In this document: piece after piece, positions 4,112-31,139 of the stretch
How positions within the stretch are numbered: the stretch's first letter is position 1
Layout: every line of letters begins with the position of its first letter
Assembly (NCBI GenBank): GCA_019694595.1
Contig: JAIBBQ010000038.1
Span: 1 to 38,309, forward strand
DNA length: 38,309 nt
Direction: 5' to 3'
Origin: Myxococcaceae bacterium
GTDB taxonomy: Bacteria; Myxococcota; Myxococcia; Myxococcales; Myxococcaceae
Notes under the pieces: model-generated
The model's database searches: none
What the model saw: only the letters and a program-made list of their open reading frames with translations
What the model was told of the DNA's origin: nothing
Position numbers and translations under genes: made by a program

Positions 4112-5391
4112 TGCTCGACCAGCGTGAAGTGGCGAAGAACTTCGAAGCCGTCGTCGCCCGGCTGCAGGACCGCAAGGGAAGCCTGGACCTCACCGAGGTG
4201 AAGACGCTCTTCGCGGAGCGCAAGGTGCTCCACGTGGAGGTGGAAGGCCTGCAGGCCAAGCGCAACGCGGCCAACGAGGAGATGAAGAAGCTGGCCAAGA
4301 GCGACCCCAAGGCGCTGGAAAGCGCCCGGGGCGAGCTCAAGGCGGTGAGCAGCGGCATCAAGGAGAAGGAAGCGCGGCTCACCGAGCTGGAAGAGAAGCT
4401 CGAGAAGCTGATGCTGGTGATTCCCAACGTGCCGCACGCCTCGGTGCCCACCGGCGCCTCGGAGGCGGACAATCAGGTGGTGCGCACCTGGGGTGAGAAG
4501 CCCAACCTGCTCTTCACGCCCCGCCAGCACTTCGAGGTGGGCGAGAAGCTCGGCATGCTCGACTTCGAGCGCGCGGCGAAGGTGTCGGGCAGCCGCTTCG
4601 CGTTCCTGAAAGGGCCGCTGGCGCGGCTCGAGCGCGCGCTCGCCTCGTTCATGATCGACCAGCACGTGCAGCGCGGCTACGAGGAGCTCCTGCCGCCGTA
4701 CCTGGTGACCCGCCAGTCGATGACCGGCACCGGCCAGCTGCCCAAGTTCGAGGAAGACGCCTTCAAGACGGCGGGGGAACACGAGCTGTTCCTGATTCCC
4801 ACCGCCGAGGTGCCGGTCACCAACTTCCACCACGACGAGATTCTCGAGGGGGCCACGCTCCCGAGGAAGTACTGCGCCTTCTCGCCCTGCTTCCGCGCCG
4901 AGGCCGGCTCGGCGGGCAAGGACACCCGCGGCCTCATCCGCATGCACCAGTTCCACAAGGTCGAGCTGGTGCAGTTCGTCCGCCCCGAGGAATCGCAGGC
5001 CGCGCTGGAAGCGCTCACCGCCGACGCGGCGCGCATCCTCGAGCTGCTCGGGCTGCACCACCGGGTGACGCTGCTGTGCACCGCGGACATGGGCTTCGCG
5101 TCGACCAAGACCTACGACCTCGAGGTGTGGCTGCCGGGGCAGCAGGCGTACCGGGAAATCTCCTCGTGCAGCTCGTTCGGCGACTTCCAGGCGCGGCGGG
5201 CGAAGATCCGCTTCCGCCCCGCGCAAGGCGAGAAGCCCCAGCTGCTCCACACGCTGAACGGCTCGGGCCTCGCGGTGGGCCGCACGCTGGTGGCCATTCT
5301 CGAGAACTACCAGCGCGAAGACGGCACGGTGGCGATCCCCGAGGTGCTGCGCCCGTACCTGGGCGGCCTCGACGCGCTGCGGCCGGTCTAG
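4111..5391 (+). CDS. serS: Seryl-tRNA synthetase
   Basis: This class II aminoacyl-tRNA synthetase charges tRNA-Ser with serine. The product is 426 residues, normal for bacterial SerRS. Residues 1-110 form the charged antiparallel coiled-coil arm that grips the long variable arm of tRNA-Ser. The catalytic domain follows, with TAEVPVTN at about 231, motif 2 ([14 protein letters not shown]) at about 261-275 and motif 3 ([10 protein letters not shown]) at about 385-394. The GTG start at 4111 reuses the last base of the upstream TAG stop and places VLDQREV where the family begins, so translational coupling to the TPR gene is likely. Two of its tRNA substrates are encoded at 30.8-31.0 kb in this window. 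Confidence 0.97.
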
Positions 5392-17245: not shown

Positions 17246-18253
17246 ATGCCCCTGCCCTTCCCCCGGCGTCCGCCCGAGCTCCTGCGGGTGTACTACTCGA
17301 GCGACGTGGTGGCGGAGTTCGACACCACGGGCTCGCCGAGCGGCCGCAAGCCGAGGGAGGTGAGCGACGCGCTCCGGCGCCAGCTCTGGCCCATCGAGTT
17401 CATCGCGCCCGAGCCGGCGGAAGTCCTGGACCTCTGCCGGGTGCACGACCCCGACTTCGTGGCCGACGTGCTGGAGCTCCGCCGCCGCAACGGCTTCGGC
17501 TCGGTCTCGCAGGTGGTGGCGCGCTCGCTGCCGTACACCACCGGGGCCTGCATCGGCGCGGCGCTCACCGCGCTCACCGACGGCATCGCCGCCTCGCTCA
17601 CCTCGGGCTTCCACCACGCCGGTCCACGCGGCCCGCGCGGCTTCTGCACCTTCAACGGGCTGATGGTGGCGAGCACGCGGCTGCTCGCCGAAGGCCGGGT
17701 GATGCGGCTGGCGATCGTCGACTGCGACTACCACTACGGCGACGGCACCCAGGCGATCATCGAGGCGAAGGGCCTGGCCGACCAGGTGCTGCACGTGAGC
17801 TTCGGCCAGCGCTTCACCGCGCCGCACCACGCCCAGGCGTACCTCGACGAGGTGCACCGGCTGGGCGACTGGCTCACGGCGTTCGGCGCGCAGCTGGTGC
17901 TGTACCAGGCGGGCGCCGACACCCACGTCGACGACCCGCTGGGCGGGCTGCTCACCACGGCGCAGATGCGCGAGCGGGACCGGGCCATCTTCACCATGGC
18001 GCGGGAGCTGCGCCTGCCACTCGCCTGGAACCTCGCCGGGGGCTACCAGGTCGAGCCCGACGGCTCGATTCCGCGGGTGGTGCAGCTGCACCTCAACACC
18101 TTCGAGGAAGCGCTCGAGGTCTGGGGGCTGCGCGCGCCTGCCCCGGCCCGACCCGAGGCTCCCGGGCGAGCCGAGCGGCCGGAACTGTCCTCCCCCGAGG
18201 ACACCGGGGTCCAGACCGCGTCCTTCGCCGCAGGACAGGACCGCCGGCGTTGA
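17246..18253 (+). CDS. Histone-deacetylase-superfamily amidohydrolase
   Basis: 335 residues of the arginase/deacetylase fold, the family that includes HDACs, acetoin-utilisation AcuC and acetylpolyamine amidohydrolases, which remove acetyl groups using Zn2+. The key sites can be placed: the His-His dyad in GFHHAGP at about 123-125, zinc ligands Asp161 and His163 in DCDYHYGDGTQ, the third ligand in GADTHVDDPLG near 224, and the catalytic Tyr in GGY near 267. The usual HHG motif is HYG here. The active site therefore looks complete. The C-terminal 45 residues are a Pro/Ala/Glu-rich tail without predicted structure. Substrate unknown; it follows an unrecognised gene by three bases. Confidence 0.88.
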   Translation: MPLPFPRRPPELLRVYYSSDVVAEFDTTGSPSGRKPREVSDALRRQLWPIEFIAPEPAEVLDLCRVHDPDFVADVLELRRRNGFGSVSQVVARSLPYTTGACIGAALTALTDGIAASLTSGFHHAGPRGPRGFCTFNGLMVASTRLLAEGRVMRLAIVDCDYHYGDGTQAIIEAKGLADQVLHVSFGQRFTAPHHAQAYLDEVHRLGDWLTAFGAQLVLYQAGADTHVDDPLGGLLTTAQMRERDRAIFTMARELRLPLAWNLAGGYQVEPDGSIPRVVQLHLNTFEEALEVWGLRAPAPARPEAPGRAERPELSSPEDTGVQTASFAAGQDRRR

Positions 18254-23667: not shown

Positions 23668-24363
23668 ATGATCGTCGCCGTCACCGGAAGCCGCCGGGGG
23701 CTCGGCCGGTCCCTCGCCGAGCACTTCCTCGCGGCGGGGGCGTGGGTGTACGGCTGCAGCCGCGAGCCGTCGGACCTCACCCACGCGCGCTACGTCCACA
23801 CGGACATGGACGTGACCGACGAGCGGGCGGTGAAGGAGTTCTTCCGCGCGATTCGCAAGGACCACGACCGGCTCGACGTGCTGGTGAACAACGCCGGCAC
23901 CGCGGTGATGAACCACGTGCTGCTCACGCCCCGCGAGACGCTGTCCAGGCTGGTCGAGGTGAACCTGGTGGGCACGTTCCTCTGCTCGCGCGAGGCGGTG
24001 AAGCTGCTGAAGAAGAGCGACCACGGGCGAATCGTGACCCTCTCGTCCATCGTGGTGCCGCTGAGGCTTCCGGGGGCGGCGGCCTACGCCGCGAGCAAGT
24101 CCGCGGTCGAGAGCCTGATGCAGACGATGAGCAAGGAGCTCGCGCCGCTCGGCATCACGGTGAACACCGTCGGGCCGACGCCGGTGCCCACCGCGCTGGC
24201 GCGCACGGTGCCCAAGGAAGCGCTCGACCAGGTCGTCGCGCAGCAGGCGATCAAGCGACTGGGGACCGCGGAGGACGTCATCAACGTGGTGGACTTCTTC
24301 GTGCGACCCGAGAGCGACTTCGTGACCGGGCAGACCATCTACCTGGGTGGAGTCTGCGCGTGA
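23668..24363 (+). CDS. Short-chain dehydrogenase/reductase (FabG-like), first gene of the halogenase operon
   Basis: A 231-residue classical SDR, an NAD(P)H-dependent ketone/alcohol oxidoreductase. The nucleotide-binding motif TGSRRGLGR is at 6-14; Arg in this loop suggests NADPH preference. NNAG follows near 75, then the catalytic Ser in TLSS and Tyr140-xxx-Lys144 in YAASK. The length and order match FabG-type 3-oxoacyl-ACP reductases, and a carrier protein encoded in the same operon makes a beta-keto reduction on an acyl-ACP plausible. The ATG 23668 lacks a strong ribosome binding site. The 185 bases upstream should hold the operon promoter, but no element was identified. The stop overlaps the next start by four bases. 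Confidence 0.92.
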   Translation: MIVAVTGSRRGLGRSLAEHFLAAGAWVYGCSREPSDLTHARYVHTDMDVTDERAVKEFFRAIRKDHDRLDVLVNNAGTAVMNHVLLTPRETLSRLVEVNLVGTFLCSREAVKLLKKSDHGRIVTLSSIVVPLRLPGAAAYAASKSAVESLMQTMSKELAPLGITVNTVGPTPVPTALARTVPKEALDQVVAQQAIKRLGTAEDVINVVDFFVRPESDFVTGQTIYLGGVCA

Positions 24364-25724
24364 GGGTGAAGCCGTTCATCGAGCGACTCGCCTCGTTCGC
24401 CGACGCGCCGGCGCTCCACACCGCGGAGCGAACCCACACCTACGGCGAGCTGCACCGCGCGGTGCTCGACCGGGCGGCCTGGCTCGAGGCGCACGGGGTG
24501 TCGCGCCCCCACTCCATCGTGCTGCTCGAGGCGGACTACTCGCTCGACGGCATCGCGCTGCTGCTCGCGCTGTTCAACCAGGATCAGATCGTCGGGCTGA
24601 GTTCCGGAGGACCGGACGCCGAGGCCCGCCTCGCCGCGCTCGACCCGCACCACGTCATCGACGCCCGCGCGCTGACCGTCGCGCACCGCGAGGCGAGCCA
24701 CGCGCACCCGCTCACCGAGCGCCTCCCGGGTGGCCGCGCGGGCCTCGTGCTCTTCAGCAGCGGCACCACCGGCCGGCCGAAGGCGATGCTCCACGACCTC
24801 GACACCATCGTGGACGCGTTCCTGGGGCGCAGGCCCCGCAGGCTGAACGTGCTCCTGCTGTTGATGTTCGACCACATCGGTGGGCTGAACTCGCTGCTCA
24901 GCACGCTGGCGATGGGCGGGGCCGCGGCGCTGCCGCGCGAGCGCTCGCCCGACGCGGTGTGCGGCATGGTGGCCAGGCACGGCGTGGTGGTGCTGCCCGC
25001 CTCGCCCACCTTCCTCAACCTGATGCTGCTCAGCGGCGCCTGCGAGCGGCACGACCTGAGCTCGCTGCGCCTCATCACCTACGGCACCGAGCCGATGCCC
25101 GAGAGCCTGCTGACGCGGCTCAAGGCCCGGTTTCCAAAGGTGAAACTGCTGCAGACCTTCGGAACCAGTGAGACAGGCATCGCTTCCACCGTGTCTCTGT
25201 CCTCGGGAAGCCTGTTCATGAAGATCGACGACCCCTCGATGGAGCACAAGATCGTCGACGGCGAGCTCTGGCTGCGCAGCCAGCGGCAGATCCTCGGGTA
25301 CCTCAACGAGGAATCGACCCGCTTCACGGCCGACGGCTGGTTCCGCACGGGCGACATGGTGGAGACCACGGGCGACGGCTTCTTCCGCATCCGCGGCCGG
25401 CAGACCGACATCATCAACGTGGGCGGCGAGAAGGTCTTCCCCGGCGAGGTCGAGTCCTGCGTGGGAGAGCTGCCCTTCGTGGCCGACTGCCGGGCCTACG
25501 GCCAGGCGAACGCGCTGACGGGGCAGGCGGTCTGGGTGGACGTGGTGCTCAAGCCGGGCAGCGAGCCGGCCGGGGCAGACGCCAAGGCGCGGGTGAAGGA
25601 GATCCGCGCGTTCACCCGCGAGCGGCTCGACGCCTTCAAGGTGCCGGTGCGCATCAACGTGGTGGACGCCATCGCCTATTCGGCCCGCTTCAAGAAACTC
25701 CCACACCAGGAGCAGCGCCCGTGA
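24360..25724 (+). CDS. AMP-forming acyl/aryl ligase (ANL superfamily)
   Basis: 454 residues. It activates a carboxylic acid as acyl-AMP and transfers it to a thiol, probably the phosphopantetheine of the carrier protein encoded downstream. Seen motifs: P-loop FSSGTTGRPKAM near 132-143, ITYGTEPMPES, QTFGTSETG (the adenine-pocket loop), GDMVE, and the hinge region FRIRGRQTDIINVGGEKVFP. The end, YSARFKKLP, places a candidate catalytic Lys in RFKK. At 454 residues it is shorter than typical acyl-CoA synthetases and nearer to DltA-like ligases found in small pathways. GTG 24360 overlaps the SDR stop (GTGA). Substrate unknown. Confidence 0.92.
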   Translation: MRVKPFIERLASFADAPALHTAERTHTYGELHRAVLDRAAWLEAHGVSRPHSIVLLEADYSLDGIALLLALFNQDQIVGLSSGGPDAEARLAALDPHHVIDARALTVAHREASHAHPLTERLPGGRAGLVLFSSGTTGRPKAMLHDLDTIVDAFLGRRPRRLNVLLLLMFDHIGGLNSLLSTLAMGGAAALPRERSPDAVCGMVARHGVVVLPASPTFLNLMLLSGACERHDLSSLRLITYGTEPMPESLLTRLKARFPKVKLLQTFGTSETGIASTVSLSSGSLFMKIDDPSMEHKIVDGELWLRSQRQILGYLNEESTRFTADGWFRTGDMVETTGDGFFRIRGRQTDIINVGGEKVFPGEVESCVGELPFVADCRAYGQANALTGQAVWVDVVLKPGSEPAGADAKARVKEIRAFTRERLDAFKVPVRINVVDAIAYSARFKKLPHQEQRP

Positions 25725-26383
25725 ACGTCGTGTTGCTGGGGTCGGGCGGGTTCGCGCGCGAGGTGCAGGAGTACCTGCTGGCGGCGGGCGCGACCGCCCC
25801 GCTGAAGCTCAAGGGCTACCTCGACGTGCCGGGCCACCAGTCGCTGCTCGGCGACGCCGCGCACCTGGGCGAGGAAGGCAGCTACCGCCCCGGCGCCGAC
25901 GAATGCTTCCTGCTGGGCATGGCCGACGGCGCGAAGCGGGCGGAGGTGCTCGCGCGCTGCTCGGGCGCCGGCTGGAAGAGCCTCAACCTGATTCACCCCA
26001 CCGCGGTGGTGTCGCCGCGCGCCTCGCTGGGCACGGGCAACGTCATCGGCCCGTTCGTCTACGTGGGGGCGAACGCGGTCCTCGGCGACCACAACGTCTT
26101 CAACTGCGGCTGCTCGGTGGGGCACGACTCCACCATCGGGTCGAACAACGTCTTCGCGTCGAACGTGCAGCTCGCCGGCTACGTGCGCATCGGCGACGCG
26201 AACTTCTTCGGCATCAGCGCGTCGGTGATTCCGCGCCTGACGATCGGCAACGGCAGCAAGGTGGCTGCGGGGACGGTGGTGACCGCGAACGTCCCCGACG
26301 CCTGCCTCTACTTCCACCGAGACACCAACAAGGTCGCCTTCATCTACCCCCAGGCGGCCCAGGCGCAGCCCACCCCGGAGTGA
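25721..26383 (+). CDS. NeuD/PglD-type acyltransferase (left-handed beta-helix)
   Basis: 220 residues. The N-terminal Rossmann-like domain begins VVLLGSGGFAREVQEYL, diagnostic of the sialic-acid O-acetyltransferase NeuD / PglD group. Hexapeptide repeats follow from about 85 to 190 (HPTAVVSPRASLGTGNVIG, GANAVLGDHNVFN, VGHDSTIGSNNVF), ending with IGNGSKVAAGTVV. His in GHDSTIG is the expected catalytic base. Family members N- or O-acylate sugars or sugar nucleotides using acyl-CoA; in polysaccharide clusters related enzymes occur with dedicated ligases and carrier proteins. The GTG start overlaps the ligase stop by four bases. This gene is the best hint that the acyl group ends on a sugar or amine acceptor. 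Confidence 0.9.
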   Translation: MNVVLLGSGGFAREVQEYLLAAGATAPLKLKGYLDVPGHQSLLGDAAHLGEEGSYRPGADECFLLGMADGAKRAEVLARCSGAGWKSLNLIHPTAVVSPRASLGTGNVIGPFVYVGANAVLGDHNVFNCGCSVGHDSTIGSNNVFASNVQLAGYVRIGDANFFGISASVIPRLTIGNGSKVAAGTVVTANVPDACLYFHRDTNKVAFIYPQAAQAQPTPE

Positions 26384-26403
26384 CCACCAGTGAGAGAGCA
26401 GCC

Positions 26404-28122
26404 ATGAACCCGGTACTGATCGTCGGCGCAGGGCCCGCGGGGTGCGTCTCCGCGCTCACCCTGCGCAAGCTCGGCCACGAGGTCGTCCTCTTCGAGCGGG
26501 CGGGGGCCCCCGAGTACAAGATCGGCGAGTCGCTGCTCCCAGGCACGCTCTCGATTCTCCACCGCCTGGGGCTCAAGGACCGGCTCGACGCCGCGAAGTT
26601 CGTCAAGAAGCCGTCGGCCACGTTCATCTGGGGCGCCGACGAGGAGCCGTGGACCTTCTCCTTCGCCACCGCGCGCCCGGAGCCGTGGATCTACGACCAC
26701 GCGATCCAGGTGCTGCGCAGCGAGTTCGACGGCATCCTCCTCGACGCGGTCAAGGAAGCGGGGGTCGAGGTCCGCGCGGGCCATTCCGTCTCGGGCATCG
26801 AGAGCTCGCGCCCCGACGACGTCGAGGTGCAGTGGACTGCCAACGGCCAGAGCGGCACCCAGCGGGGCAGCTACGTCATCGACTGCACCGGGCAGGCCGG
26901 GCTCATCGCCAAGAAGCACGAGCTGCGGCGCTACGACGCCTTCTACCGGAGCCTCGCCGTCTGGAATTACTTCCCCGCGACGCGCGCGTTCTCGGGCGAC
27001 CTCAACGGCACCACCTTCTCCATCACCTTCCGCGACGGGTGGATCTGGATGATCCCCCTGAAGGACGGCACGTACTCGGTGGGCGCGGTGGTGGACACCG
27101 AGGCGAGCCGCGAGATCCAGGCGCTGGGGGCGAGCGCGTTCCTCGACCGGTGCCTGCGCTCGGCGCCCGAGGTGCACACCATCGTCGACCTCTCGCAGCC
27201 CCGCAGCGAGACCCGCATCATCCGCGAGTGGTCGTACGACGCCACGCGTTTCTCGTTCGGCCGGGTCTTCATGTGCGGCGACGCGGCGTGCTTCACCGAC
27301 CCGCTCTTCTCGCAGGGAGTGCACCTGGCGACGCAGTCGGCGGTGTGCGCCGCCGGGGCCATCGACGCGCTCGCGAAGAACCCCGCCCACGCGGACGCCG
27401 TGCACCAGTGGTTCGACACCAGCTACCGGGAGTCGTACTCGCAGTACCACGAGTTCCTGGCGTCGTTTTACAGCCACGCCTCGCGGCTGATGCCGAGCTC
27501 GGCCTTCTGGAGCAAGCGTCGGGTCCAGGACTTCGCCGACAAGCGCTTCGCGAACACGCTGTGGATGAAGTCGCTCACCGGCCAGGCGGAGCCCGAGGCG
27601 GGCGGCGAGGGCGCGGTCATCGACCAGTTCGTGGGCCGCTCGGGCACGATGATCGGCATCGGCCAGCACCTCCGCAAGGAGCTGCACGCGGACTTCAGCG
27701 AGGCGGAGCTCAGCCAGAAGCGGCTGATGTGGGTCGCGAACCTGACCAAGTCGCTCAACCGGATCCAGAAGTTCAGCTGGGTCGGCGACGAGGCGCGCCT
27801 GGTGCCCACCTTCAAGGTGGACCCGCTGTCGTTCCGTCTCCGCGAGGAAGCCATCGTGGCCAACGAGCGCGGGGTCACCATGTCCAAGTACCCGCTGAAC
27901 GAGAAGTACCTCGCGGTGCTGCAGGCGCTGAAGCACGAGGAGGTCGGGTACAAGGAACTGATGCGGCGCTTCCAGGCGCTCGACCAGCCCGAGGTCGCGA
28001 GCCAGATCATCATCCGGCTGCTCGAGGCGGGGCTCCTGCGCGGGTACGACAAGAAGGGCGAGCGGGTGGCGATCCAGAAGCGGCTGCGGTTCGACGGCGT
28101 CGGCGCCGAGTACGAGGTCTGA
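26404..28122 (+). CDS. Flavin-dependent halogenase-like FAD enzyme
   Basis: 572 residues. The FAD-binding GAGPAG is at 8-13, and KIGESLLPG near 40 is typical of halogenases and relatives. Both motifs used to define flavin-dependent halogenases are present: GWIWMIP (GWxWxIP) at 212-218, and FTDPLFSQG (FxxPxxSxG) at 297-305 just after GDAAC. The second motif is associated with true halogenation activity, so chlorination or bromination is predicted. The family includes enzymes acting on carrier-bound substrates such as PltA, and an ACP gene follows after one base. Residues about 490-550 look like an added winged-helix-type domain (YPLNEKYLAVLQAL, LLEAGLLRGY), making it longer than typical members. 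An oxygenase role is the main alternative. ATG 26404 follows a GAGAGA-rich leader. Confidence 0.88.
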   Translation: MNPVLIVGAGPAGCVSALTLRKLGHEVVLFERAGAPEYKIGESLLPGTLSILHRLGLKDRLDAAKFVKKPSATFIWGADEEPWTFSFATARPEPWIYDHAIQVLRSEFDGILLDAVKEAGVEVRAGHSVSGIESSRPDDVEVQWTANGQSGTQRGSYVIDCTGQAGLIAKKHELRRYDAFYRSLAVWNYFPATRAFSGDLNGTTFSITFRDGWIWMIPLKDGTYSVGAVVDTEASREIQALGASAFLDRCLRSAPEVHTIVDLSQPRSETRIIREWSYDATRFSFGRVFMCGDAACFTDPLFSQGVHLATQSAVCAAGAIDALAKNPAHADAVHQWFDTSYRESYSQYHEFLASFYSHASRLMPSSAFWSKRRVQDFADKRFANTLWMKSLTGQAEPEAGGEGAVIDQFVGRSGTMIGIGQHLRKELHADFSEAELSQKRLMWVANLTKSLNRIQKFSWVGDEARLVPTFKVDPLSFRLREEAIVANERGVTMSKYPLNEKYLAVLQALKHEEVGYKELMRRFQALDQPEVASQIIIRLLEAGLLRGYDKKGERVAIQKRLRFDGVGAEYEV

Positions 28123-28123
28123 G

Positions 28124-28465
28124 GTGGCGAGCCAGGCAACGACGGCGGCGACGGGCGCGGAGGACGAGGTCCTCTACGGGATGATCATGGGCGTCCTGGG
28201 TGAGCTCAACCAGGGCCGGGAGAACCCCATCGAGCTCGGCCTCGGCAAGGGGCTCGTGCTCTTCGGGCGCGGAGCGGTGTTCGATTCCATGGGGCTGGTG
28301 AGCTTCCTGTCCCGGGTCGAAGAGGAGCTCGAGGACCAGCTCGACCAGGTCATCTCGCTCACCTCGGAGAAGGCGGTGTCGCGCCGGCAGAGCCCCTTCG
28401 CCAGCGTGCAGGCGCTCATCGACTTCATCCGCGAGGAGCTGGCCGAGCAGGGCGCGGCGACGTGA
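28124..28465 (+). CDS. Acyl carrier protein-like
   Basis: 113 residues, acidic and helical. GAVFDSMGLVSFLSRVEEEL matches the carrier-protein signature, with candidate phosphopantetheine Ser55 in DSMGLV. It is longer than the usual 80 residues because of about 20 extra N-terminal residues and a longer loop before the serine. The third and fourth helices (LTSEKAVSRR, VQALIDFIREELAEQ) are recognisable. GTG 28124 lies one base after the halogenase stop, and the gene overlaps the next by four bases. It is the likely tether for the acid activated by the ligase at 24360 and a possible substrate platform for the halogenase. A phosphopantetheinyl transferase is not encoded in the window. Confidence 0.85.
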   Translation: MASQATTAATGAEDEVLYGMIMGVLGELNQGRENPIELGLGKGLVLFGRGAVFDSMGLVSFLSRVEEELEDQLDQVISLTSEKAVSRRQSPFASVQALIDFIREELAEQGAAT

Positions 28466-29346
28466 GCGGTCCCGCGGAGGCTCCGTCGACCATCGTCCGC
28501 AAGGCGGTGCCGGGAGATCTCGACCAGATCTTCACGCTGCTGGCCGGCTCGGAGCTGTCGCGGGAAGCGCGCGCGCGCATGTTCGAGAAGCGCTGGGGCG
28601 CCGACGAGGACTACTTCGGGTACGTGCTCGAGCTGAACCACACCATCGTGGGGATGCTGGGGCTGATGTTCAGCCGCCGGGAGCTGAACGGGGTCACCCA
28701 CAAGTTCTGCGAGCTGCACACCTGGTACGTCGACGACGCCCACCGCGACGAGAGCCTCAAGCTGTTCCTGCCGGTGATGGGGCTCAAGGGGTACGACTTC
28801 ATCAACGTCGCCCCGTCCGACGTGGTGCTCGCCATCTCCAAGAAGTTCGGGTTCCAGGAGCTGGAGACGCACCTGCGGCTGGTCTTCCCGGTGCCCACGC
28901 CGCGGACCTTCGTGGGTGGCACCGAGCTCGTCTTCGACCACCAGGTCATCGAGCGCTCGCTGTCGGGCAGAGACCTGCGGATCTTCCAGGACCACCGCGA
29001 CCTGCCGCTCACCCACGTGCTGGCGCGCGATGGCTCGGGCCACCACTGCTACGTCATCGCCAAGGCCTGCTCGCGGGAACGCTGGGAGCGCTACGGCCGC
29101 ATCTTCCACTTCAGCAGCGCGGAGGCGTTCGTGCGGCACCTGCCTGCGCTGCGCGTCAGGCTCTGCCTCGAGCTCGGAGTGCTCTTCCTGGTGACGAACG
29201 ACGCGAAGCTCGAGGGCGCCCAGGTGCCGTTCTCGAAGGTGATTCCGCGCGAGGTCCCCTCGCTCTTCAAATCGAAGACGCTGCGGAGAGAAGACCTCGA
29301 CCACCTGTACACCGAGCCGTTGGTCCTCGGGTACCGGTTCCAGTAG
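28462..29346 (+). CDS. GNAT-like acyltransferase
   Basis: 294 residues. The first 165 fit a GNAT fold: IVRKAVPGDLDQIFTLL start, YFGYVLELNHTIVGMLGLMF core strands, and ISKKFGFQELE, the 'GF' near the end of the domain common in this family. The acyl-CoA pyrophosphate loop is not obvious. The second half (165-294) is an additional domain, beta-alpha in character (HHCYVIAKACSRERW, VRLCLELGVLFLVTND), perhaps a second degenerate GNAT-like unit. GTG 28462 overlaps the ACP stop, so stoichiometric production with the ACP is likely. An acyl-ACP dependent N-acyltransferase role is inferred from context, not shown. Confidence 0.75.
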   Translation: MSGPAEAPSTIVRKAVPGDLDQIFTLLAGSELSREARARMFEKRWGADEDYFGYVLELNHTIVGMLGLMFSRRELNGVTHKFCELHTWYVDDAHRDESLKLFLPVMGLKGYDFINVAPSDVVLAISKKFGFQELETHLRLVFPVPTPRTFVGGTELVFDHQVIERSLSGRDLRIFQDHRDLPLTHVLARDGSGHHCYVIAKACSRERWERYGRIFHFSSAEAFVRHLPALRVRLCLELGVLFLVTNDAKLEGAQVPFSKVIPREVPSLFKSKTLRREDLDHLYTEPLVLGYRFQ

Positions 29347-29357
29347 GGACGCGCGCG

Positions 29358-30647
29358 ATGCCCGCCGCTCGTCGCACGTACCTCTTCTACCGCGACGTGG
29401 ACTTCGTCCCGTACCTGGTCTCGCTGGCAGCCGTGGGGGGCCTGACCTGGGCCGCGCTCCCCTACGCGTGGGTCCGCGGCAGCGTGGCGGTGGCGCTCGC
29501 GTTCCTGGCGGCGCTCTTCTGGCGCAAGCACGGTGCGCGGCTCGAGCCCCGAAGCGTGGGCCTGCTGCTGCGCGGCCTCGGGCGCTACCCCTGGTCGCTC
29601 GCGCTGCGGCTCCTCGACGGCTGGGCCATCTCCGCGCAGCTGGCGCTCGGGTTCGCGGTGGCGCTCGGTGTCGAAGCCGGCGTGCGCCACGTCGCGGGGC
29701 CGGACTCGCTCTGGCTCACGCCCTTCCCGGCTCTCTGGTGCTTCGCCGTCGTCTTCGGCGCCCTGACCGCGTACCGGACCGTCGTGCTGCTGGCCCACCT
29801 GCGGAAGGCGCGCCACGTGCGCCAGGTGCTCGAAGGGTCGAGCTGGGCGCGGGAGCTCAAGGGGCTCTCGACCTGGGCGCACCTGGTGCACGCCTGGGTG
29901 ACGGGCGAGCTGGCGACGCTCGCGTTCTTCCTGCCGTCGCTCCTGTTCTGGCAGCTGACGGAGCCGACCTGCGTGCGCGAGCTGGTGCTCCTGGCGCTCG
30001 GTGCGGGCGCGATCCTCGCGAGTGCGCGCGGCCTCGACACCCGGGCCGAGGTGCCCGCGTCCAGGTCGCTGCGGGTGGCGGTGGCGCTGGTGGTGCCGTC
30101 GGGGAAAGCGGCGGAGCGCGAAGGCGGCCTCACCCACGGGGCCGACCACGCCTCGCGCTTCGGCTTCACGCTCTTCCACGGCCACCACCACGACGCGGTG
30201 CCGTGTGCGCTGGTCGGCGGACCGGGCGTGGGACTGCTGGAGGCGTTCGACAACGGCTTGCTCTACCTGCCGTATCTCGGCAGCGCGACGGTCTCGCTGC
30301 TGGCCTTCGGCGCGTACGCGGTCATCGACATGCTCTTCCACCAGTACGTGCCCGGCGTCTTCCCGTACACGCGCGCGGTGCTGTCGTTCCAGGTGCACCA
30401 CGTCGCGCACCACTTCTTCTCGCTGCGGCCGGTGAGCGTGAACGCGCGGTACGGCTTCGACGTGGGCGCGGGGTACCGGCCGGACAACGCGGTGACCCGC
30501 TGGTTCCTCGAGACGGCGAAGGCGCACGAGCCGGTGCCGGTCGACGTGTCGGACCGCTTCCTGCGCCTGACGCTCGCCGAGCCGATGGTGGTGACCCCGG
30601 AGGAAGTCGCCCGCATCGACGCGCACGCGCGCGGCGCGGTGGCCTGA
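29358..30647 (+). CDS. Membrane di-iron protein of the fatty-acid hydroxylase/desaturase type
   Basis: 429 residues with about six to eight membrane helices in the first 330. Three histidine clusters match the HX3H, HX2HH, HX2HH pattern of the fatty-acid hydroxylase / sterol desaturase superfamily: HGADH at 260-264, HGHHH at 274-278 and HHVAHH at 347-352, with another His in FHQYVPG. These residues would bind two irons for O2-dependent hydroxylation or desaturation of a lipid-like substrate at the inner membrane. The N-terminal 200 residues are longer than in the simplest members. It is the last gene of the operon, 11 bases after the GNAT-like gene, so the final product or an acyl precursor is probably lipophilic. 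Confidence 0.82.
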   Translation: MPAARRTYLFYRDVDFVPYLVSLAAVGGLTWAALPYAWVRGSVAVALAFLAALFWRKHGARLEPRSVGLLLRGLGRYPWSLALRLLDGWAISAQLALGFAVALGVEAGVRHVAGPDSLWLTPFPALWCFAVVFGALTAYRTVVLLAHLRKARHVRQVLEGSSWARELKGLSTWAHLVHAWVTGELATLAFFLPSLLFWQLTEPTCVRELVLLALGAGAILASARGLDTRAEVPASRSLRVAVALVVPSGKAAEREGGLTHGADHASRFGFTLFHGHHHDAVPCALVGGPGVGLLEAFDNGLLYLPYLGSATVSLLAFGAYAVIDMLFHQYVPGVFPYTRAVLSFQVHHVAHHFFSLRPVSVNARYGFDVGAGYRPDNAVTRWFLETAKAHEPVPVDVSDRFLRLTLAEPMVVTPEEVARIDAHARGAVA

Positions 30648-30820: not shown

Positions 30821-30907
30821 GGAGCAGTGGCCGAGCGGCTGAAGGCAGCGGTCTTGAAAACCGCCAGGGGTGCAAGCCCCTCGAAGGTTCGAATCCTTCC
30901 TGCTCCG
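30821..30907 (+). tRNA. tRNA-Ser (anticodon UGA)
   Basis: Acceptor arms GGAGCAG and CTGCTCC pair fully, with discriminator G. The anticodon loop CTTGAAA gives TGA, reading UCA codons and related serine codons. The long variable arm GGGG-TGCAAG-CCCC marks a class II tRNA. The T arm is GAAGG-TTCGAAT-CCTTC. The 3' CCA is not encoded and must be added after transcription. Confidence 0.96.
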
Positions 30908-30938
30908 CAGTTTGGTCTTTGACAGCAGTGGCGTGAAT

Positions 30939-31025
30939 GGAGAGTTGGCCGAGCGGCTGAAGGCGCAGGTTTGCTAAACCTGTATACTCGAAAGGGTATC
31001 GAGGGTTCGAATCCCTCACTCTCCA
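30939..31025 (+). tRNA. tRNA-Ser (anticodon GCU)
   Basis: Acceptor arms GGAGAGT and ACTCTCC pair fully. The anticodon loop TTGCTAA gives GCT, for AGU/AGC serine codons. The variable arm forms ATAC-TCGAAAGG-GTAT, and the T arm is GAGGG-TTCGAAT-CCCTC. CCA follows at 31026-31028 and may be encoded. The discriminator base reads A, whereas bacterial tRNA-Ser normally has G73. The gene lies 31 bases after the first serine tRNA. Confidence 0.95.
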
Positions 31026-31058
31026 CCAACTCGAAGTACGCAGCAGTCGTTTGGAAAA

Positions 31059-31132
31059 GCTCCCTTAGCTCAGCTGGATAGAGCGTTGGACTACGAATCC
31101 AAAGGCCGGAGGTTCGAATCCTCCAGGGAGCG
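31059..31132 (+). tRNA. tRNA-Arg (anticodon ACG)
   Basis: Seven-base acceptor arms GCTCCCT and AGGGAGC, with discriminator G. The anticodon loop CTACGAA gives ACG, and the T arm is GGAGG-TTCGAAT-CCTCC. No CCA is encoded. In bacteria the A34 of this tRNA is deaminated to inosine by TadA so that it can read CGU, CGC and CGA. The tadA gene starts only seven bases downstream. Confidence 0.97.
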
Positions 31133-31139
31133 CTGAACC

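Follow-up and report, generated by a model that had tools for sequence, protein, structure and literature searches.

A myxobacterial seven-gene operon as a probable divergent relative of the CmlM-CmlJ-CmlK-CmlS haloacyl cassette

Background

What might an operon make that encodes a flavin-dependent halogenase and an acyl carrier protein (ACP), together with ligase, reductase and acyltransferase genes, but no assembly line? The question is raised by positions 23668-30647 of contig JAIBBQ010000038.1, from the draft genome of a Myxococcaceae bacterium (GCA_019694595.1); the 38,309-nt stretch of this contig analysed here is called the window throughout. An initial annotation, made from the sequence alone, had found the combination of genes unrecognisable. 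This view did not survive comparison with other genomes, as four of the seven genes are counterparts of cmlM, cmlJ, cmlK and cmlS of chloramphenicol biosynthesis, and six of the seven turn up as a set in other phyla. We consider it probable, at roughly two chances in three, that the operon is a divergent haloacyl cassette of the CmlM-CmlJ-CmlK-CmlS kind, with acyltransferases of its own and without an assembly line.

In Streptomyces venezuelae, cmlM (ACP), cmlJ (short-chain dehydrogenase/reductase, SDR), cmlK (AMP-ligase) and cmlS (halogenase) form a cluster, likely a single operon, and have been assigned to dichloroacetylation partly by elimination (PMC4249514). CmlM has been suggested to tether the acid during halogenation (PMC4249514). 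According to one review, the proposed substrate of CmlS is a malonyl enolate (PMC8407142), while another describes the natural form of the substrate as unclear (PMC4227530).

Results

Organization of the operon

The open reading frame (ORF) list places seven plus-strand ORFs in this region, as follows.

23668..24363, plus strand: SDR oxidoreductase, CmlJ-like, FabG-type, 231 aa (Pfam adh_short_C2, 3.4e-49)
24360..25724, plus strand: ANL acyl ligase, CmlK-like, 454 aa, GTG start (Pfam AMP-binding, 1.6e-34, and C-terminal domain)
25721..26383, plus strand: NeuD/PglD-like left-handed beta-helix acyltransferase, 220 aa (TIGR03570, alignment to 4ea7)
26404..28122, plus strand: CmlS-type flavin-dependent halogenase, 572 aa (NF033113, CmlS_C domain, PDB 3i3l)
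28124..28465, plus strand: acyl carrier protein, CmlM-like, 113 aa (homology to carriers of related loci)
28462..29346, plus strand: tandem-GNAT acyltransferase, 294 aa (homology to cassette GNATs, structure model)
29358..30647, plus strand: membrane protein, putative di-iron oxygenase, lineage-specific, 429 aa (His boxes, hydrophobic segments)

The seven-gene operon of the initial annotation, with gaps of at most 20 bases, is borne out by the junctions, and a single transcription unit is a fair inference from their spacing. Three starts overlap the preceding stop, each by 4 bases (SDR/ANL, ANL/NeuD and ACP/GNAT), and gaps of 1 and 11 bases follow the halogenase and the GNAT gene, respectively. 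The NeuD/halogenase junction has a 20-base gap if the ATG at 26404 is used; an alternative in-frame GTG at 26380 would overlap the NeuD gene. On the 5' side a Lipase_2 gene ends 185 bases before the SDR gene, and on the 3' side 173 bases separate the operon from tRNA-Ser(TGA). The SDR, AMP-ligase, NeuD/hexapeptide and flavin halogenase family labels given earlier are likewise strongly backed by Pfam and NCBIfam profile matches.

The halogenase and its core partners

The halogenase provides the closest link to the chloramphenicol genes. It aligns over its full length (residues 3-572) with CmlS (PDB 3i3l) at 50% identity, carries the CmlS C-terminal domain (CmlS_C, PF22045; E 1.5e-45), and keeps the halogenase signatures intact, namely GESLLPG (GES), the Lys of VKKPS and WIWMIP (WxWxIP). 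CndH, the myxobacterial chondrochloren halogenase (3e1t), is also a homologous flavin halogenase (E 2.8e-64), but it is far more distant than CmlS, and its match ends at residue 397 without reaching the CmlS C-terminal domain.

The three core partners also have the features of their families. The SDR contains TGSRRGLG, NNAG and YAASK and is 58% identical to its counterpart in Andreprevotia and 42-52% to those of other loci; the ANL ligase contains SSGTTGRPK, GTSE, GRQTDIINVGGEK and FKK and is 56% identical to the Andreprevotia protein. A Pfam scan of the ACP gave no meaningful match; the protein is 39-60% identical to the carriers of 32 related loci (60% to that of Andreprevotia), and its phosphopantetheine Ser (FDSM; DSM/ESM or equivalent) is invariant in all 33 aligned rows.

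Related loci and phylogeny

A search of about 85,000 genomes, plus plasmids, with halogenase-only patterns supplied the related loci, and 32 were analysed. Homologues of the ACP, SDR and ANL genes lie near the halogenase in 32 of these 32 loci; since the loci were chosen by the halogenase alone, the association is not due to chance. A NeuD-like acyltransferase is present in 18 of the loci and a GNAT in 11, among Actinomycetota and alpha-, beta- and gamma-proteobacteria. The order ACP-SDR-ANL-Hal (Hal, halogenase) occurs in 13 loci, the core with NeuD added in seven, and the core with both NeuD and GNAT in nine plus one permuted locus; a single Acidobacteria locus is ordered ANL-Hal-ACP-SDR. 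One locus analysed, L040, lies within Micromonospora record GG657738, which has been named as carrying chloramphenicol genes (PMC4249514).

The gene order of the window, SDR-ANL-NeuD-Hal ... ACP-GNAT, was found again solely in Andreprevotia chitinilytica (L012), the nearest relative for each of six genes (47-66% identity; 66% for the halogenase). Unlike the window, L012 has genes for a phosphopantetheinyl transferase (PPTase), a serine hydrolase and a non-ribosomal peptide synthetase (NRPS; condensation, adenylation, thiolation and thioesterase domains, C-A-T-TE) between the halogenase and the ACP, and lacks the membrane oxidase. The earlier statement that no polyketide or peptide synthase is present thus holds for the operon itself, but does not extend to its closest relative. 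Nine clusters of Rhizobium, Pseudomonas and Streptomyces (L010, L018, L024, L025, L027, L028, L030, L037 and L038) have the same six families as the window but put ACP-GNAT first, in the order ACP-GNAT-SDR-ANL-NeuD-CmlS, and usually continue into genes for a serine hydrolase and for a GNAT that is weakly FeeM-like. The FeeM-like match, seen in nine loci, is sub-threshold (E 0.0011).

Other partner genes vary as well, with ATP-grasp ligases in some loci and the NRPS in L012; with partners differing across loci, the core therefore resembles a mobile source of haloacyl groups that can be combined with one condensing enzyme or another. No description of the wider cassette family was found in the open-access literature, most subscription papers lying outside the search.

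Several other observations concern these loci. The GNAT at 12301-13707 of L028 and its homologues in nine loci may be N-haloacyl amino acid synthases, given the weak FeeM match; FeeM-like GNATs follow the cassettes in Rhizobium, Pseudomonas and Streptomyces, and one lies near a cassette in Rathayibacter. Four Streptomyces loci of the chloramphenicol clade (L019, L020, L036 and L041) contain a related ATP-grasp protein, with no NRPS seen nearby, and L036 also has an aminotransferase and an amino acid permease; these loci possibly make different chloroacyl products. Large proteins judged by eye to be penicillin-acylase-like lie near four cassettes (L012 18571-21012, L028 2247-4658, L037 and L038); they may be amide hydrolases that serve in self-protection or maturation.

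In the halogenase tree the window and Andreprevotia form a pair (100/100) split from the 31 other rows at 96/98, and CmlS groups with 12 NeuD-lacking loci in one clade (96/95) that adjoins the NeuD-bearing loci. The ANL tree, in which CmlS is not included, recovers the same pair at 96 and the same 12-locus clade at 94, and the SDR and ACP rows nearest to the window are those of Andreprevotia. By these sequences, the window and Andreprevotia are placed as a deep branch, and the chloramphenicol cassettes in a separate clade. The presence of NeuD requires three changes on each of the two trees. With the root placed on a very long outgroup branch, the chloramphenicol cassettes would seem to be a reduced version of a broader system, a direction that is tentative because the root is insecure.

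Accessory acyltransferases and the membrane protein

The NeuD-like protein scores 146.2 bits on TIGR03570, below the curated cut-off of 160.8. Its residues 3-196 align with both domains of the perosamine N-acetyltransferase 4ea7, and the active-site His (mutated in 4eaa/4eab) is kept in VGHD, as in other cassette NeuDs; it is 55% identical to the Andreprevotia counterpart. The GNAT-like label of the initial annotation had a mixed outcome: the Pfam match is weak and under the cut-off (E 0.0013), while a model predicted from ten sequences (predicted local distance difference test, pLDDT, 78) matches tandem-GNAT folds at Z about 14-15.6, resembling Eis, glucosamine N-acetyltransferase and N-myristoyltransferase with a root-mean-square deviation of 4-5 Å over about 260 residues. 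The protein is 39-48% identical to cassette GNATs (47% to that of Andreprevotia). Chloramphenicol clusters have neither NeuD nor GNAT and manage with the core by itself, so we regard both as accessory. A more distant tandem-GNAT relative (28%) was seen in a polysaccharide region of Sinorhizobium meliloti pSymB (L058 8899-12929), where it adjoins an exosortase-type AMP-ligase, a pyridoxal phosphate-dependent (PLP) decarboxylase and a phosphopantetheine-binding protein.

The membrane protein was earlier labelled fatty-acid-hydroxylase-like and di-iron. It has hydrophobic segments and His boxes of the form HxxxH ... HxHHH ... HHxxHH (H260/H264, H274/276-278, H347/348/351/352), a tripartite pattern that arises in just 4 of 100,000 shuffles of the protein, but homology gives the label no support, as neither Pfam (up to E 5) nor the PDB (up to E 10) yielded a match. 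Di-iron chemistry is possible, the His-box pattern being the one thing that backs it. No homologue was found in plasmids, 195 genomes of the phylum, 19 cassette genomes or 398 proteobacteria, apart from one chance-level match with stops among the 19 cassette genomes, which makes the protein unique among the operon genes in having no detectable relative in the searched sets. Its single-sequence fold (pLDDT 38.5) is too poor to use.

Genomic setting

The operon adjoins the following array, which is the right border of an inserted stretch.

30821..31133, plus strand: tRNA-Ser(TGA), tRNA-Ser(GCT) and tRNA-Arg(ACG) (ARAGORN)

All 8 same-family genomes fetched have this tRNA-Ser/Ser/Arg array no more than about 130 bases after serS, while in the window 25.4 kb (5392-30820) separate serS (4132-5391) from the array, with the operon at the tRNA end. 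The initial annotation had proposed surveying the gene order across Myxococcota for conservation; the halogenase turned out to occur in 1 of 195 genomes of the phylum, that of the window alone, an isolated occurrence. The upstream lipase, by contrast, has homologues of about 50% in 12 other genomes of the family. Because the 25.4-kb stretch splits serS from the array and the halogenase occurs in a single genome, a lateral gain of the operon within a rearranged locus is suggested. A simple check found no direct repeat of at least 10 bases between the two borders of the stretch. Contamination is unlikely, because one contig holds the operon with host-type genes on one side and, on the other, a tRNA array that relatives share, though the draft may be misassembled.

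Elsewhere in the window, 42-base tandem repeats (83-224) open the frame of a TPR protein, and a histone-deacetylase-like protein (17246-18253) lies inside the inserted stretch, after an ORF without assignment. The genome also encodes a second flavin halogenase (G000:C131 36573-37742, L009; 36% identity), on a contig shared with several NRPS condensation domains.

Discussion

Homology, intact motifs and the co-inheritance of six genes, which can be read from the sequences, underlie the following proposal. The ligase would adenylate a short carboxylic acid and load it onto the small ACP, the SDR would set the oxidation state of the beta carbon, and the CmlS-type halogenase would chlorinate the activated alpha carbon, probably twice. 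This would yield an alpha-haloacyl-ACP; dichloroacetyl is the likeliest such group, and the remainder of the chain may have to be lost to reach it. The NeuD-like and tandem-GNAT enzymes would move acyl groups onto or off the carrier and an amine acceptor, filling the role of the NRPS in chloramphenicol-type clusters, for which the window offers no other candidates, and the membrane protein might tailor the acceptor or the product. Loading, halogenation and the partnership of the core genes have the support of homology; which acid is used, how many halogens are added, in what order the steps run, what accepts the acyl group, whether the chain is cleaved and all NeuD, GNAT and membrane steps we infer. 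Adenylation, ACP loading, reduction, halogenation and transfer to an amine, as the initial annotation had them, fit what has been proposed for chloramphenicol dichloroacetylation, whereas the membrane di-iron step is suggested only by a motif.

The operon shares with the chloramphenicol cluster a clustered ACP, SDR, AMP-ligase and CmlS-type halogenase. It differs in gene order, in its extra NeuD-like, tandem-GNAT and membrane genes, and in having no cmlP, cmlA, cmlH, cmlI, cmlT or p-aminophenylalanine genes alongside. A chloramphenicol cluster proper was rejected, CmlA, CmlP and p-aminophenylalanine genes not being beside the core.

Several points weigh against assigning the operon to the cassette. 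It contains no acceptor or condensing enzyme, and no metabolite is known for it; no homologue of the protein in the CmlA position of L040 was found in the genome, and a search of it for the FeeM-like GNAT and the serine hydrolase was empty, which is weak evidence. Even in chloramphenicol biosynthesis the roles of the dichloroacetylation genes have been said to "remain obscure" (PMC4249514). The halogenase scores 786 bits on NF033113, under the equivalog cut-off of 900, so that the curated rule would make it a relative of CmlS rather than the same enzyme. It also has Glu in REWSYD, where CmlS (QDWSYD) and most others have Asp; if this Asp is the one to which CmlS binds FAD covalently, the enzyme of the window may hold its flavin differently.

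Among the alternatives, the best survivor is that the cassette supplies an NRPS encoded in another part of the genome, with NeuD and GNAT preparing the acyl substrate (e.g. by S-acyl transfer) rather than condensing the product. We hold this to be possible though unlikely: L012 has its PPTase, serine hydrolase and NRPS within the cassette, Rhizobium pT136b has NRPS genes about 13 kb downstream of its cassette, and the window genome contains 13 condensation-domain matches across several contigs other than that of the operon, yet no NRPS is present in the window, the tRNA array ends the operon, and no link from the NRPS contigs to the operon was found. A good deal less likely is the modification of a surface sugar or lipid, in which the NeuD-like enzyme would put an ACP-made acyl group onto an amino sugar and the membrane oxidase would act on a lipid. 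The alignment with perosamine N-acetyltransferase, including the His, and the 28% GNAT relatives in polysaccharide loci, next to ligase and carrier genes in Sinorhizobium and also in Paludibaculum, speak for it, but the operon has no glycosyltransferase, nucleotide-sugar or transport gene, other NeuD-bearing cassettes adjoin NRPS, FeeM-like, PPTase and antiporter genes, and the NeuD-like score is under the TIGR03570 cut-off. Least likely, a CmlS-like enzyme that is no longer a halogenase but hydroxylates or oxidises an ACP-bound substrate would accord with the sub-equivalog score and with the Asp to Glu change, common to the window, L012 and L033 only, but is opposed by the intact Lys, GES and WxWxIP, the 66% identity to L012 and the constant partnership with the same core.

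Within the haloacyl cassette that we prefer, one extension is tentative and rather doubtful: a synthase-free route, in which the haloacyl group on a stand-alone ACP is handed directly to an amine by NeuD or the tandem GNAT and then oxidised at the membrane by an undescribed membrane oxidase, would give a new class of alpha-haloacyl amides, the chloramphenicol cassette being a trimmed relative of an older and wider system.

Conclusions

What is new here is a probable CmlS-type haloacyl cassette in which NeuD, a tandem GNAT and a membrane protein of orphan status accompany the core and no assembly line is present; the kind of cassette is already known. The analysis flags a set of clusters, one of them in a myxobacterium, that are likely makers of halogenated acyl amides and for which the literature searched yielded no studies. 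The chloramphenicol four-gene set would represent one version of a cassette that occurs in several phyla and in which NeuD and GNAT are optional and the condensing partners interchangeable. For a dichloroacetyl chemistry that has been called obscure (PMC4249514), such natural variants let substrate, halogenation and transfer be tested apart, and comparing cassettes across bacteria could reveal how a chlorine-bearing acyl group is made and handed on.

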